Assembly (NCBI RefSeq): GCF_001650725.1
Contig: NZ_LXVX01000002.1
Span: forward strand, 186,001 to 250,000
DNA: 64,000 bases
DNA from: Sphingobium sp. TCM1
Lineage (GTDB): Bacteria; Pseudomonadota; Alphaproteobacteria; Sphingomonadales; Sphingomonadaceae
Direction: 5' to 3'
Below are positions 32,899 to 38,548 of this stretch, piece by piece. Position numbers and translations under genes: made by a program. Each line of letters starts with the position of its first letter. Within the stretch, counting starts at the first letter, position 1. Under the pieces are notes generated by a model that did not search any database, was not told the origin of the DNA, and saw only the letters and a program-made list of their open reading frames with translations.

Positions 32899-33222
32899 TC
32901 AAAAAGGCAGCTTGAAGCCGGGAGGCAGCGGGAGGCCCGCGGTCATCTTGCCCATTTCAGCGCTGGACACCTCATCAGCCTTCTTCCGGGCGTCGTTGAA
33001 CGCGGCGGCGACCAGATCCTCCAGCATCTGCTTTTCCGAAGGTGCGAGCAGGCTCTCGTCGATCGTTACGCCCATGATCCGGCCCTTGGCCGAAGCGCGC
33101 ACCTTGACCAGGCCACCGCCGGCCGCACCCTCGACCTCCAGCTTGTCGAGATTGTCCTGCGCCCGTTGCAATTCTTCCTGAACACGGCTCGCCATGCCCA
33201 GGATTTCGTTCAAGTCCTTCAT
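32899..33222 (-). CDS. YbaB/EbfC nucleoid-associated protein
   Basis: A 107-residue dimeric DNA-binding protein with N-terminal helix (LNEILGMASRVQEELQRAQDNLDKL), a beta-sheet centre (VKVRASAKGRIMGVTID) and C-terminal helix (LEDLVAAAFNDARKKADE). It overlaps the dnaX stop by 4 bases (ATGA), the dnaX-ybaB pair being one of the most conserved bacterial gene pairs. In other bacteria recR often follows; here it does not. Confidence 0.95.
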   Translation of the reverse strand: MKDLNEILGMASRVQEELQRAQDNLDKLEVEGAAGGGLVKVRASAKGRIMGVTIDESLLAPSEKQMLEDLVAAAFNDARKKADEVSSAEMGKMTAGLPLPPGFKLPF

Positions 33223-34832
33223 GCTTCAGCACTCCATTGTTCGAGCCTGTCATCCAGCTCGGCATCGGGGAAGGCGGCCATCGCCGCCTTGACCACCGGG
33301 GTTTCCAATATCTCGGCGCGGGCGTCCGCCGCCTTGCGCTGCTCCTGTTCCAGCAAGGTCGGCTCGGCCGACCCGTCACTCTGCGCCACCTGCCAGGGGG
33401 TACCGGTGACTTCGCGCAACGCAGGCAGCAGGCGCGCCATGAAATCGGCGGGCAGTTGCGACGTCGGGCGATAGTCGAACTGGGGCGGCGCATAGCGCAC
33501 GACGCCCACGCAATCATGAAGTTCCTGTGCCAGTTGCCCCTTGCCCCGCTGCCAGAAGGCTTCGATCAGGTCGACAAAGGTGGCTGGCAGGCGCGCCGCG
33601 GGCGCGGACGAAGACGCAGCGGATGCACCATTGGCTGCGGCCGGAGCCGCCACCGGACCGCCCTCGCGCAGCATCCGCGCAATCTCGCTCGGATCGGGCA
33701 TGGTCGCCGCGTGCATGACGCGCAGCAGCGCCATTTCGCAGCTTTCGATCGGCAGGATCGCGCTCGCTACCTCGTCATGCCCCTTGAGCAGCAATTGCCA
33801 GAGCCGATGCAGCGGCGCGAAACCGAGCTGCGACGCCCAATCCGACAAGGCTTCACGTTCTTCGGCCGACTGGCCGGGGCTGCCAATGTCGCGCCCGGCC
33901 TTCACCAGGGTCACGGCATGAACCAACTCCAGCAGACCGCGCATCAGGGCCAGCGGCTCGACGCCCAGCGCATATTGGTCGCGGACAGCGCCCAGCAGAG
34001 CGCCCGTATCATCTTCCAGCAGCAGGCCGAGGAGGCGGCGCACGGACCCGCGATCGGACAGGCCCAGCATGTCGCGCACCTGGGCGGCGGTGACGAGCGG
34101 CGCCCCTTCCCCCATCTCGGCGTGCGCAATCGCCTGGTCCAATATGGACAGGCCGTCGCGGGCGGAACCTTCCGCTGCCTGCGCGATCAGCGCCAGCGCA
34201 TCGGGCTCGGCCGCCACATTCTCCGCTTCCACCACATGGGAGAAATGGCCGGCCAGCAGTTCGGCCGGGATTCTGCGCAGGTCGAAGCGCTGGCAGCGCG
34301 ACAACACCGTCACCGGCACCTTGTTAACCTCGGTCGTGGCGAACAGGAATTTTACATGGGCGGGCGGCTCCTCCAGCGTCTTCAGCAACGCGTTGAAGGC
34401 GTTTTTGGAGAGCATGTGGACTTCGTCGATGATGTAGATCTTGTAGCGCGCCGACACGGCGGCATAGCGCACCGCCTCGATGATCTCGCGCACGTCGTCA
34501 ACGCCGGTATGGCTGGCGGCGTCCATCTCCACCACGTCGATATGGCGGCCTTCGGCGATCGCCAGACAGGGTTCGCACAGGCCGCAGGGGTCGATGGTCG
34601 GACCGCCCTGCCCGTCCGGCCCTATGCAATTGAGCGCCTTGGCAATCAGTCGCGCGGTGGAAGTCTTGCCCACCCCGCGCACGCCCGTCATCAGAAAGGC
34701 ATGGGCCAGCCGCCCGCGCTTGATCGCATTGCCCAGCGTCTGGACCATCGCGTCCTGGCCGATCAGCTCATGAAAGCTGCGCGGTCGATATTTGCGCGCG
34801 AGGACGCGATAGGGCTGCGGGGAATCGGACAT
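33219..34832 (-). CDS. dnaX: DNA polymerase III subunit gamma/tau
   Basis: Clamp-loader motor of the replicative polymerase. It has 537 residues. The AAA+ domain has Walker A TGVRGVGKTS at 49-58, zinc cysteines C69, C83, C86 and C89 (CGLCEPC) and Walker B IIDEVHM at 134-140. Sensor ATTEVNKVP and the clamp-loader collar (about 230-360) follow, then a linker rich in Ala, Pro and Ser near 390-410 and a tau-like C-terminal domain. I saw no A-rich slippery heptamer of the E. coli type, so only the full-length form is supported. The SRP RNA gene lies just upstream on the same strand. Confidence 0.96.
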   Translation of the reverse strand: MSDSPQPYRVLARKYRPRSFHELIGQDAMVQTLGNAIKRGRLAHAFLMTGVRGVGKTSTARLIAKALNCIGPDGQGGPTIDPCGLCEPCLAIAEGRHIDVVEMDAASHTGVDDVREIIEAVRYAAVSARYKIYIIDEVHMLSKNAFNALLKTLEEPPAHVKFLFATTEVNKVPVTVLSRCQRFDLRRIPAELLAGHFSHVVEAENVAAEPDALALIAQAAEGSARDGLSILDQAIAHAEMGEGAPLVTAAQVRDMLGLSDRGSVRRLLGLLLEDDTGALLGAVRDQYALGVEPLALMRGLLELVHAVTLVKAGRDIGSPGQSAEEREALSDWASQLGFAPLHRLWQLLLKGHDEVASAILPIESCEMALLRVMHAATMPDPSEIARMLREGGPVAAPAAANGASAASSSAPAARLPATFVDLIEAFWQRGKGQLAQELHDCVGVVRYAPPQFDYRPTSQLPADFMARLLPALREVTGTPWQVAQSDGSAEPTLLEQEQRKAADARAEILETPVVKAAMAAFPDAELDDRLEQWSAEA

Positions 34833-34887
34833 GCCTCTGTCCTAGCCGCTCGGACGGCCATTGTCGAAGATGGATGATGACTGGAGG

Positions 34888-34980
34888 GTGGGAGCCGGAA
34901 CGACCCGTGACGAAATCACTGTGGCTGCTTCCGTCAGGACCTGACCAGGTTCGCAACGGTCACGCCCGCCCGACTCCCGC
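34888..34980 (-). ncRNA. ffs: Signal recognition particle RNA (bacterial small, 4.5S type)
   Basis: The minus strand carries the universal SRP domain IV signature: ACCTGGTCAGGTC followed by GGAAGCAGCC, the apical loop and Ffh-binding asymmetric loop. The ends GGGAGTCGG and CCGGCTCCC are complementary and close a long hairpin of about 93 nt. It guides nascent membrane proteins with Ffh. Exact ends are estimates from the pairing. Placement directly upstream of dnaX is common in alphaproteobacteria. Confidence 0.9.
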
Positions 34981-35058
34981 GCCGGCATATGGCGAAGTGA
35001 GGCGGGCTTGGCAAGGGGTTCACCTTCTCGCCACCATGGCAGGGAGAGATCGGCCCGC

Positions 35059-36036
35059 TTACTCCAGCCCGCTCTTCTGTGCCTTGCTGACGAAATCGAG
35101 CGCCGCGCGCGCGGTTTCGGCGATGGCCGCCTCCGCCTTGCCCGCATCGACCGTGGGCCGGTCCAGATAGATGGCCAGGATATATTCGTCGCCCGCCGCA
35201 GACTTGACCAGCGCCACGTCATTATAGGCGGTGCCACATGTGCCGGTCTTGCTACCCGACGTCCACCCTTCGGGCAGGCCCGCCTTGATGCGATGGTCGC
35301 CGGTGCTACTGGCGTTGAACCAGGCGCGCAGCCTGTCGGCGCTCTCCGGCTTCATGTCCCGGAAGAAAAGCCGCCCCATCAGCCCCGCCATCGCTGCGGG
35401 AGACGTCGTGTCGCGCTCGTCCCCCTCGGCATTCTCGTTGAGAGCGGGCTCGTTGCGGTCGAGCCGGGTCACGCGGTCGCCATGGGCGCGCATGAAGGCG
35501 GTGAGGCCCGGCGGGCCGCCCAGCATCGGCAGCAACAGATTGGCCGCGCTGTTGTCGCTCACCTCCACCGCCGCCTGCGCCAGTTCGCCCATGCTCATGC
35601 GGCCGCGCTTGCGGTTCTTCTTCACGACCGGGGCGTAATCGAGAATATCGTCCTTGCCGAAGGATATCTCCCCCTCCAGCCCGAACTTGCCGGCTTCGGC
35701 GCCCAGAAGCACGGCAGCGGCCAGCGGCCCCTTGAAGGTCGAACAGAGGGCGAAACGCTCGTCGCGGTTGAAGCCAAGCAGAAGCGCCCCGCTCCTGTCG
35801 ACCAGCGCGACCCCCAGCCGTCCGCCGGTTTCCTTCTCGATCTCGGCGGGATTGCGAAGGGATGTCAGCGCCGATTGCGGCACCAGATAACGCGGCGCGA
35901 CCGGCATCAGTGAATCGAGCCGCCCAGTCGGAACCGGCTCTCTGGCGGGCGCCTTCTTCCGGTCGGCAGCCTGACCGGGAACGGCGATCAGCGCCAGGGC
36001 GGCCAGAAGGGTCAGCCTCTTCATGGATCGGATCAC
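35059..36036 (-). CDS. Class A beta-lactamase with C69/C238 cysteine pair
   Basis: A periplasmic serine beta-lactamase of 325 residues. The signal peptide ends near GQA (23), followed by an unusually long linker to about residue 70. Class A motifs are complete: S99-T-F-K102 (Ambler S70-K73), S160-D-N (130 loop), RNEPALN with E196 (E166) and N200 (N170), and K263-T-G (K234). C98 and C267 fall at Ambler 69 and 238, the positions joined by a disulfide in KPC, SME, IMI and GES-type enzymes, and Thr at 237 is shared with them. GTG 36036 overlaps the ferredoxin stop (GTGA); ATG 36024 is an alternative. A sphingomonad class A enzyme, SGM-1, is known; I cannot tell how close this one is. Confidence 0.93.
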   Translation of the reverse strand: MIRSMKRLTLLAALALIAVPGQAADRKKAPAREPVPTGRLDSLMPVAPRYLVPQSALTSLRNPAEIEKETGGRLGVALVDRSGALLLGFNRDERFALCSTFKGPLAAAVLLGAEAGKFGLEGEISFGKDDILDYAPVVKKNRKRGRMSMGELAQAAVEVSDNSAANLLLPMLGGPPGLTAFMRAHGDRVTRLDRNEPALNENAEGDERDTTSPAAMAGLMGRLFFRDMKPESADRLRAWFNASSTGDHRIKAGLPEGWTSGSKTGTCGTAYNDVALVKSAAGDEYILAIYLDRPTVDAGKAEAAIAETARAALDFVSKAQKSGLE

Positions 36037-36368
36037 ATGCCCTGCATATTATTGGATTCGTTCGGGATGCGGACGGTCAGTCGCTCCATTCCGGCGTCCA
36101 GCACTATCTGGCAGGACAAGCGGCTGGTGCGCGTCGCGGCGGCGGCCAGGTCGAGCATATCCTCCTCATCCTCGCTGGCGCGGGGCAGACGGACGAAATC
36201 CTCGGCATCGACGATGACATGGCAGGTCGAGCAGGCCATCTGTCCCTCGCAGCTTCCTTCCAGCGGCTGGCCGGCGGCCTGCGCAATGTCCAGCAGCAGC
36301 GATCCGGCAGGCGCGTCGACCTCCTGCCGCCGCTCGCCGTCAGCGCTGATAAAGGTGACCCTGGTCAT
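36033..36368 (-). CDS. 2Fe-2S ferredoxin (adrenodoxin/Isc type)
   Basis: A 111-residue electron carrier. Cluster ligands lie in CEGQMACSTCHV and the late RLSCQIV, in the vertebrate-adrenodoxin spacing C-x5-C-x2-C then about 36-37 residues to C. The acidic surface helix ASEDEEDMLDLA is the usual partner-docking patch. It lies 18 bases behind the cysteine desulfurase, which suggests a role as electron donor in iron-sulfur cluster assembly, though Isc scaffold genes are not here. It could also serve cytochrome P450 systems. Confidence 0.93.
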   Translation of the reverse strand: MTRVTFISADGERRQEVDAPAGSLLLDIAQAAGQPLEGSCEGQMACSTCHVIVDAEDFVRLPRASEDEEDMLDLAAAATRTSRLSCQIVLDAGMERLTVRIPNESNNMQGM

Positions 36369-36386: not shown

Positions 36387-37475
36387 TCACGGCGCCGCTT
36401 GTGCGGCTGCCGCTTCATTCAACACTGTTGCAGCCCTCTCCAGTTCCGCCGGCGTCGTGTAGCGGCCGAAGCCGATCCGCACCGATCCGCGCGCCTGGCC
36501 ATCCGTCAGCCCCAGCGCGCGCAGCACATGGCTAGGCCGCCCGGACCCGCTTGCGCAAGCACTTCCCAACGAAAAAGCAACATTGCGGCAATGGGACAAC
36601 AGCCGCGCGCCATCAATGCCCTCGCGCCGCAGGTTGAGATTGCCGGCGTAGCGCTGCGCCATGCTACCGTTCAGCGTCCAATCATCGAACAGACTGCGGG
36701 CCGCAGCCGCCAGCTTTTCGACATGCACGCGATCCATGTCCGCCCGCTCTCGCATCAGCCGCGCGGCGACCCCGAAGCCCGCGCAGAGCGCCGGGGAGAG
36801 CGTGCCGGACCGCAGCCCCCCTTCCTGCCCGCCACCATGAATGAGCGGCGCGGGCTTCACCCCGTCGCGCAGCCAGAGCGCACCTACGCCTTTGGGGCCG
36901 TGAATCTTGTGTGCACTGATCGCGACCATGTCGCAGCCCTGCGGGATCGGAACCCGGCCATAGCCCTGCACCGCATCGCACAGGAACAACGCGCCAGCCT
37001 CATGCGCCATGGTCGCCAGCATCTCGACCGGCTGGATCACGCCGATCTCGTTGTTGACCAGCATCGCGACAACGAGTGCGACACCTGGAACGATTGCTTC
37101 CCGTGCAGCGTCCGGATCGACGATGCCGTCCGGGCCGACCGGCAGGACGGTCACGTCACGGCCGGCCCGGCGCATGGCGTCCGCCGTGTCGAGCACGGCG
37201 GCATGTTCGGTCGCGATCGTAACGATGGCGCCCGCCGGCGCGCCCTGGATCGCGATGTTGAGCGCCTCGGTCGCGCCGGAGGTGAAGAGGGTTCGCCCCC
37301 CCGAGGGCAGCAGCTTGCCGATCTCCTCGCGCGCGACCTCCACCTGCGCGGCGGCGGCGCGACCCGGGCGATGAGCGCTGTGCGGATTGGCGAACTGGTC
37401 GCGCAGCAGCGGGACCATCGCGTCAAACGCCTCCGGCGCGAGCGGCGTCGTAGCCTGATAATCAAGATATATCAT
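36387..37475 (-). CDS. Cysteine desulfurase (NifS/IscS family), second of a tandem pair
   Basis: A PLP enzyme of 362 residues that takes sulfur from cysteine. PLP lysine K190 is in ISAHKIHGPKG, and the sulfur-accepting C307 in LGSACASGSGRPSH lies in an IscS-like extended loop. It has a compact N-terminus (MIYLDYQATTPL). Its start overlaps the stop of the upstream paralogue by 4 bases, and a ferredoxin gene follows, so sulfur transfer for Fe-S clusters or tRNA thiolation is likely. The longer frame running into the first paralogue is not used. Confidence 0.94.
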   Translation of the reverse strand: MIYLDYQATTPLAPEAFDAMVPLLRDQFANPHSAHRPGRAAAAQVEVAREEIGKLLPSGGRTLFTSGATEALNIAIQGAPAGAIVTIATEHAAVLDTADAMRRAGRDVTVLPVGPDGIVDPDAAREAIVPGVALVVAMLVNNEIGVIQPVEMLATMAHEAGALFLCDAVQGYGRVPIPQGCDMVAISAHKIHGPKGVGALWLRDGVKPAPLIHGGGQEGGLRSGTLSPALCAGFGVAARLMRERADMDRVHVEKLAAAARSLFDDWTLNGSMAQRYAGNLNLRREGIDGARLLSHCRNVAFSLGSACASGSGRPSHVLRALGLTDGQARGSVRIGFGRYTTPAELERAATVLNEAAAAQAAP

Positions 37476-38548
37476 ATCTTTAACTGTCCAGCCGCTCTTT
37501 CCGCCATGGCTGTCCAGACGGCGAGGAAACTGTCCATGTCGCTGTCGGACGTTTGCGGGCCGAAGCTCACGCGCACCACTTCGGACGCCGCCGCCTCGTC
37601 CCAGCCCATTGCGCCCAGCACATGGCTGGTCTTGAGCGATCCGGACGAACAGGCGCTGCCCGCCGACACCGAAATGCCCCTGAGATCGAACTGGATCAGT
37701 TGCGCGCGGGCGGACAAGCCCGGCATCCGGTAGCTGGCGATGGCGGGGATACGCGGCGCGTCCCGCGCGACGATCACGCCGCCCGCCGCCTCGATCCCCG
37801 CGTCCAACCGGGCGCGCAGTTCCGCCGCCTTGGCCAGCCAGTCGCCGCGCGAGTCCAGCGCCGCGGCCATGGCAAGGATCGCGGGGAGATTTTCGGTACC
37901 CGGACGATAGCCCTGCTCCTGACCGCCGCTCGGCTCGATCAGGGCAAGGTCGCGGATCAGCAGCGCGCCGATGCCGGGCGGGCCGCCGAACTTGTGGGCG
38001 CTGACAGCGATCATGTCGGCATCCGGCAGCGACAGCTTGCCCGCGCTCTGGGCGCAATCGGCAAACAGGATCGCCCCATCGCGCTCGATCCGGTCGAGCG
38101 GCTGGATCACGCCGGTTTCGTTATTGACGTGCTGGACGGCGAGAAGGATTCGTTCGTCCGATCGCAATACCCGATCGGAAGTCAGGCAGACACACCCATC
38201 AGACGTTACCGGCAGCCGATCGGCGCCCTTCGTCACGCGCAGTACGGCGTCATGCTCGACCGGCGACGTGACGACCCGCGCCGCCCTCACCCGCGTCAGC
38301 GCGATGGCGATCGCCTCGGTCGCGCCGGACGTGAAGATCACATGCCCGCTCCAGCCCAGCGCCACGGCGATCCGGGCGCGCGCCTCCTCCAGCGCCGCGC
38401 GCGCGGCGCGGCCGTCGGCATGGGGGCTGGACGGGTTGGCCCAATCCTCCATCGCCGTCGCCATCGCCGCGCGCGCAGCGGGCAGCATCGGGGTGGTCGC
38501 GGCATGATCCAGATAAAGACGGTCGGCGGCCAAGCGGGCATTACTCAT
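37472..38548 (-). CDS. Cysteine desulfurase (NifS/IscS family), first of a tandem pair
   Basis: A 358-residue paralogue of the next gene, clearly diverged from it. PLP lysine K186 is in VSAHKFGGPPG and the active-site C300 in AGSACSSGSLKTSH. Residues HAATTP, FTSGATEAI and HVNNETGVIQP are the standard PLP-pocket blocks. Two intact, translationally coupled desulfurases suggest a heteromeric or divided role. It is divergent from the alpha/beta hydrolase at 38700, so the promoter lies in the 150 bases between. Confidence 0.93.
   Translation of the reverse strand: MSNARLAADRLYLDHAATTPMLPAARAAMATAMEDWANPSSPHADGRAARAALEEARARIAVALGWSGHVIFTSGATEAIAIALTRVRAARVVTSPVEHDAVLRVTKGADRLPVTSDGCVCLTSDRVLRSDERILLAVQHVNNETGVIQPLDRIERDGAILFADCAQSAGKLSLPDADMIAVSAHKFGGPPGIGALLIRDLALIEPSGGQEQGYRPGTENLPAILAMAAALDSRGDWLAKAAELRARLDAGIEAAGGVIVARDAPRIPAIASYRMPGLSARAQLIQFDLRGISVSAGSACSSGSLKTSHVLGAMGWDEAAASEVVRVSFGPQTSDSDMDSFLAVWTAMAERAAGQLKI

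Follow-up and report, generated by a model that had tools for sequence, protein, structure and literature searches.

A native chromosomal SGM-family class A beta-lactamase next to a ferredoxin gene in Sphingobium

The lactamase gene and its surroundings

The window, i.e. the whole stretch of 64,000 nucleotides that was analysed, contains a class A beta-lactamase gene set among housekeeping genes of the same strand, Table 1. The reading frame starts at a GTG, encodes 325 residues and has no internal stop. Directly upstream lies the ferredoxin gene recognised in the preliminary description, here supported by Pfam Fer2 (44.2 bits); its best NCBIfam model is fdx_isc, at 69.4 bits, under the cut-off of 132.1. 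Two cysteine desulfurase-like genes precede it as a tandem (36387-38548, minus strand) with a 4-base overlap, and both are conserved in related loci. On the other side, the small SRP RNA separates the lactamase from dnaX and a YbaB/EbfC family gene.

Table 1. Features of the lactamase locus, in window coordinates. Residues are counted from the GTG; motif names use Ambler numbers.
Feature	Position	Strand	Basis or remark
YbaB/EbfC family gene	32899..33222	-	TIGR00103 80.6 bits, cut-off 49.45
dnaX, DNA polymerase III gamma/tau	33219..34832	-	NCBIfam NF006585 730.4 bits, cut-off 604
Small SRP RNA, between lactamase and dnaX	34884..34981	-	Rfam RF00169 50.6 bits, gathering 40
SGM-family class A beta-lactamase	35059..36036	-	325 aa from GTG; blaSGM 576.1 bits, cut-off 500
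Lys234-Thr-Gly-Thr237-Cys238, residues 263-267	35236..35250	-	Alignment; turn after it shorter than in GES-1 and KPC-3
Glu166 to Asn170, residues 196-200	35437..35451	-	Alignment
Ser130-Asp-Asn132, residues 160-162	35551..35559	-	Alignment
Cys69-Ser70-Thr-Phe-Lys73, residues 98-102	35731..35745	-	Alignment
N-terminal linker ahead of the class A domain, residues 25-62	35851..35964	-	Second half within the SGM model
Probable Sec signal peptide, residues 5-24	35965..36024	-	Sequence read by eye
Likelier start ATG	36024	-	321 aa product; in frame, 12 bases inside the GTG
2Fe-2S ferredoxin gene, directly upstream	36033..36368	-	Pfam Fer2 44.2 bits, cut-off 21
Second cysteine desulfurase-like gene, 362 aa	36387..37475	-	33-40% identical to the first in 12 related loci (tblastn)
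First cysteine desulfurase-like gene	37472..38548	-	Pfam Aminotran_5 136.9 bits, cut-off 21.5; NCBIfam desulfurase models below cut-off

The GTG overlaps the ferredoxin stop by four bases (GTGA). This overlap had been described before as a coupling of the two genes, and it is real. The idea of a special coupling device is weakened, however, as tight spacing is general across the related loci and the overlap is not: of 70 loci, 40 have a start codon with the 4-base overlap and 50 have an ATG in frame no more than 40 bases from the ferredoxin stop. A ferredoxin ending of ATG-TGA, if the frame is right, automatically creates a GTG start. A TAA or TAG stop provides no such GTG, and in those loci the lactamase frame mostly has its first start codon 4-14 bases further on. 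The overlap is largely a by-product of the ferredoxin's ending, and because it stems from a Gly-Met-TGA terminus the ATG at 36024 is the likelier start of the lactamase.

The long N-terminal linker that was pointed out earlier is also found here. In the window protein the match to the general class A model begins at residue 64, compared with 33 in KPC-3, 28 in GES-1 and 26 in BEL-1, and the SGM model begins at residue 41, inside the linker. In an AlphaFold2 model residues 1-58 have a pLDDT below 50.

Family and active site

The protein matches the NCBIfam blaSGM model (NF000512) over all its positions (1-285 of 285) with 576.1 bits, above the cut-off of 500, and three congeners obtain 544-602 bits. 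It also scores 256.5 bits with NF033103, the model for class A beta-lactamases (cut-off 200), and 147.3 bits with Pfam Beta-lactamase2 (cut-off 22). With the blaSGM and NF033103 scores, the first assignment as a chromosomal class A beta-lactamase holds. Alignment to class A families including KPC and GES was run, and the family found, SGM, is one that the preliminary description had named. The twelve relatives in named records come from Sphingobium (8), from metagenome-assembled genomes without a genus (3) and from a Parasphingopyxis metagenome-assembled genome (1), which puts the window in Sphingobium or very close to it. The window gene is a known, native chromosomal SGM-family enzyme, of a family already described; the likeness to SGM consists of the score above the cut-off over the whole model and the shared genus, as judged by relatives. 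SGM-1 was reportedly described from a Sphingobium sp. by Lamoureaux et al. in 2013 (AAC 57:3783), in a work whose title calls it an extended-spectrum beta-lactamase. In the accessible parts of the literature SGM-1 appears as reference-list mentions, one sentence and one survey table (PMC8300632, PMC3871716, PMC5744064, PMC5770381, PMC11939749), and there it is listed among natural chromosomal extended-spectrum enzymes that contribute little to phenotypic resistance (PMC8300632).

For the active site, Ambler numbers were transferred from SHV-11 in an alignment with eight references (KPC-3, GES-1, CTX-M-15, CAE-1, BEL-1, SHV-11, PAU-1 and an Azospirillum enzyme). The class A signature motifs are all present (Ser70-X-X-Lys73, Ser130-Asp-Asn132, Glu166, Lys234-Thr/Ser-Gly). 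The preliminary description had called the catalytic motifs intact, and Ser70, Lys73, Ser130, Asn132, Glu166, Asn170 and Lys234-Thr-Gly236 are indeed found. It had also placed cysteines at Ambler 69 and 238 and a threonine at 237; the alignment with SHV-11, KPC-3 and GES-1 confirms that residues 98, 266 (Thr) and 267 fall at 69, 237 and 238. Cys69 and Cys238 are the only two cysteines of the whole window protein.

We then compared the SGM genes of the genus, defined as those with at least 69% identity (65 genes, or 66 when the window gene is counted). Both cysteines are present in 65/65, and no further cysteine occurs in the class A domain of any of the 66. All 65 genes keep Ser70, Lys73, Ser130, Asn132, Glu166, Asn170, Thr216, Arg220 and Lys234, while position 237 is Thr in 27 and Ser in 38. 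Position 105 is Tyr in 52 and His in 13; KPC-3 and GES-1 have Trp there. Four more distant SGM-like genes (58-69% identity) carry both cysteines. Twelve non-SGM class A genes from the same genus (39-48%) have Cys69 in 12/12 and Cys238 in 0/12. Among the eight references both cysteines are found in KPC-3, GES-1 and BEL-1, the last two being named extended-spectrum enzymes. The pair most likely forms a disulfide in the window enzyme. Cys238 is separated from the next Asn-Asp by four residues in the window protein, five in GES-1 and BEL-1, and six in KPC-3.

The AlphaFold2 model, built with 13 sequences, has a mean pLDDT of 78.6 and shows a tight hairpin of strands 259-267 and 270-278. The fold is that of class A. 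The closest solved structures are BEL-1 entries (top 8joi_A, TM-score 0.91 over the target), followed by ancestral reconstructions, a Bordetella enzyme and GES.

The named enzymes that share the cysteine pair differ from the window protein in sequence and in family score. BEL-1, the top solved-fold match, is 42.7% identical in the matched stretch and its turn after Cys238 is one residue longer; the window protein obtains 205.2 bits with the BEL model (NF000398, cut-off 620), compared with 666.8 for BEL-1 itself. GES-1 and GES-5 share Cys69, Thr237 and Cys238, but GES-1 is only 36% identical, has Gly170 and Trp105 and, unlike the window gene, is mobile in a class 1 integron; the GES model (NF012103, cut-off 625) gives 178.3 bits for the window protein and 676.9 for GES-1. 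KPC shares Cys69, Asn170, Arg220, Thr237 and Cys238. However, its identity is 41%, it has Trp105, its turn is two residues longer, it groups with CTX-M-15 on the tree, and the KPC model gives the window protein 183.9 bits against a cut-off of 625.

The locus in the genus and in the family

Among 94 genomes of the genus, 66 have an SGM gene at 69% identity or more, four have a gene at 58-69% and one has a broken gene. Eleven carry only another class A gene, and twelve have no match better than 1e-10, although four of these twelve genomes are less than 82% complete. The lactamase is thus dispensable: 12/94 genomes lack it, and in 11 a different class A gene takes its place.

The pairing with a ferredoxin had been called an odd setting for a resistance gene. 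It is rather a conserved home: the ferredoxin lies directly upstream in 66/66 SGM genes. In 59 of the 66 loci dnaX lies downstream inside the fetched stretch; for the other seven it is about 1.5 kb off (G071, G051), on another contig (G039, G025, G001, G030) or about 90 kb away (G037). Across twelve loci with wide flanks, one of them from Parasphingopyxis, the order desulfurase-desulfurase-ferredoxin-lactamase-dnaX-ybaB is kept in eleven and the twelfth ends at a contig end.

Several loci depart from this arrangement. In L025, L029, L030, L031 and L033 (G039, G037, G025, G001 and G030, respectively) the ferredoxin-lactamase pair is split from dnaX, i.e. the lactamase stayed on the ferredoxin side. 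In G048 an SGM-like gene at the usual seat is broken into two pieces in different frames (L088, G048:C1:2358900-2361200). In G033 the SGM-like gene (64%) does not lie at the ferredoxin (L089, G033:C2:28000-33800), and the ferredoxin-dnaX interval contains no lactamase (L090, G033:C31:41200-42500), which could reflect a move or a separate copy. Seven hand-chosen intervals without the gene (L090, L103-L108) measure about 200-450 bases.

The gene has descended together with its neighbour. Pairwise identities of lactamase and ferredoxin correlate with r 0.946 over 86 loci, and for the first 160 residues of DnaX, which are far more conserved, r is 0.563; none of 1000 permutations was as high in either case. 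Compared with ten congeners, the window has a dN/dS of 0.12-0.22 in the lactamase and 0.08-0.19 in the ferredoxin; against a genome of the same species the value is 0.23, on very few changes. The lactamase gene is under purifying selection.

A search of 397 genomes of the family gave a class A relative at 1e-30 in 165, ten of them from the genus besides the window's own. From beyond the genus we analysed 80 loci, not sampled at random: 20 with scores near the top of the list and 60 with lower ones. In 42 of the 80 a neighbour on the same strand marks the locus, either a ferredoxin no more than 600 bases upstream or dnaX downstream, and the lactamases are 42-56% identical (20/20 of the top-scoring and 22/60 of the lower-scoring loci). 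These same-place lactamases belong to 14 other genera of the family, counted by genus code. At 25 places from other families, with flanks of 1.5 kb, neither a ferredoxin nor a dnaX neighbour was found. The same housekeeping seat in many related genera, at least 15 among the sampled members, is mildly new; the accessible parts of the literature on SGM-1, on class A beta-lactamases of Sphingobium and Sphingomonadaceae and on synteny gave no description of a family-wide fixed locus.

In a first tree (132 rows) Cys69 is present in 69/70 and Cys238 in 50/70 same-place rows, and Cys238 in 3/54 of the others; for a few rows whose turns are unusual, the residue assigned to 238 varies with the alignment. 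The same-place set, in which some members have Cys238 and others lack it, could serve to test the role of the disulfide outside clinical enzymes. A second tree, of 109 rows, unites 36 same-place rows with the displaced G033 gene, GES-1 and BEL-1 in one clade (99/94, bootstrap not settled). Six genes directly after a ferredoxin (L118, L123, L150, L154, L160, L167) nevertheless fall elsewhere on the trees, possibly by a second arrival or replacement at one site. A single clade of all same-place genes with GES and BEL is not rejected (AU p 0.233).

That GES and BEL derive from inside the SGM-type clade is a lead only. A tree with both outside the same-place clade is not rejected either (AU p 0.375), and once the Cys69 column and the KTG-to-ND block are removed they are placed next to the clade together with one other row, the clade node itself being unsupported (SH-aLRT 12). 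The best family match of GES-1, 223.2 bits, is hardly above the 214.7 bits from a phylum-wide sample. KPC-3 groups with CTX-M-15 and one further row (100/99), so its Cys238 most plausibly arose independently. A disulfide-bearing lineage may have entered the ferredoxin-SRP RNA interval a single time, in a common ancestor of a large part of Sphingomonadaceae, and the mobile GES and BEL families may have branched off from it or from its sister lineage, their cysteine pair then being inherited from sphingomonad-type chromosomal enzymes and of separate origin from that of KPC; we consider this scenario unlikely.

Proposed function and alternatives

We propose that the gene encodes a periplasmic SGM class A serine lactamase, resident in a desulfurase-ferredoxin operon, that would open penicillins and cephalosporins and is not expected to hydrolyse carbapenems efficiently. 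We give this reading a probability of about 0.8. The protein would be exported to the periplasm and act there. Acylation followed by deacylation is the standard route of class A serine lactamases: Ser70 would be acylated, a water activated by Glu166 with Asn170 would release the product, and Lys73, Ser130 and Lys234 would handle protons and the substrate carboxylate. The Cys69-Cys238 disulfide would most likely stiffen the pocket adjoining the oxyanion hole.

Expression is probably low and constitutive, from the desulfurase-ferredoxin operon and without a dedicated LysR regulator. A LysR gene adjoins each of CAE-1, PAU-1 and the Azospirillum gene; no LysR gene was found among the scanned neighbours of the window lactamase (NCBIfam and Pfam profiles). 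A scan for promoters and terminators gave no promoter-like site and one terminator of chance level, on the other strand. As these scans gave little, operon expression is something we infer.

The gene might instead encode a true class A carbapenemase, in which the disulfide together with Thr237, Asn170 and Arg220 gives useful imipenem hydrolysis as in KPC, SME and GES-5. The five positions shared with KPC-3 and the domain with exactly two cysteines speak for it; according to the accessible part of a review, class A carbapenemases other than SHV-38 carry just these two cysteines (PMC4463611), and simulations and mutants indicate that the pair matters for carbapenem turnover in SFC-1 and SME-1 (PMC9379904, in part). 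The pair is not specific, however, since GES-1 and BEL-1 have it and are named extended-spectrum enzymes, as is SGM-1 by its title, and the same source states that the disulfide alone does not give carbapenem hydrolysis to all class A enzymes. The two-cysteine set of the preliminary description therefore fits the carbapenemase pattern without being restricted to it, and its caution that the pair proves no carbapenem hydrolysis agrees with that source. The model for KPC, SME and IMI carbapenemases (NF000538) gives the window protein 205.9 bits, under the cut-off of 390, compared with 454 for KPC-3. GES-1 obtains 206.1 bits, i.e. the model does not cover GES, and because GES-1 fails it too, the low score leaves room for carbapenem hydrolysis. 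Further, position 105 is Tyr or His in 65/65 SGM genes where KPC-3 and GES-1 have Trp, and the turn after Cys238 is shorter. Taken together, a true carbapenemase is unlikely. The label carbapenemase-type is not earned, given the pair in GES-1 and BEL-1, the low NF000538 score and the Ser237 of 38/65 SGM genes, and the case illustrates once more that carbapenem hydrolysis does not follow from the cysteine pair. The expected substrates of the SGM enzyme are penicillins and cephalosporins, with at most weak carbapenem turnover.

Two other explanations concern the place of the gene. A mobile resistance gene inserted only recently next to the ferredoxin would agree with its absence from 12/94 genomes, its replacement in 11/94 and the copy elsewhere in G033. 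But the seat is the same in 66/66 SGM genes and in 42/80 family loci of 14 other genera, and the gene co-descends with the ferredoxin. In a search of 72,556 plasmid records, from which those of close genomes may be missing, no protein match exceeded 50.2% identity among the best 5000 records listed, and at the DNA level 26 plasmid records matched, none covering 80% of the gene. We reject recent mobile acquisition on these grounds, as extremely improbable; the gene has the look of a long-standing resident, and its retention within a single housekeeping interval illustrates well what old, non-mobile resistance can be. The other explanation is that resistance is not the main job and that the enzyme is tied to the Fe-S assembly operon, for cell-wall turnover or with its dose set by the Fe-S or oxidative state. 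The gene order kept in 11/12 loci, including Parasphingopyxis, agrees with this. So does CzoA of Comamonas testosteroni, a class A enzyme with an Fe-S connection, where IscR acts through a LysR regulator (PMC5744064, in part); compared by description, CzoA lies next to a LysR regulator that has an IscR site, whereas the window gene is only co-located with Fe-S genes. Co-location is not regulation, the lactamase-specific residues including Glu166 are invariant in 65/65, and the gene is missing in 12/94 genomes, so we regard this as very unlikely.

The genome of the window has five further places that match Beta-lactamase2 besides SGM. The strongest (L001:1381-2604, minus strand, G000:C40) reads as a 407-residue protein with SAYK, SDN and KTGS motifs, and adjoins a frame that appears to be uracil-DNA glycosylase-like, the names being given by eye.
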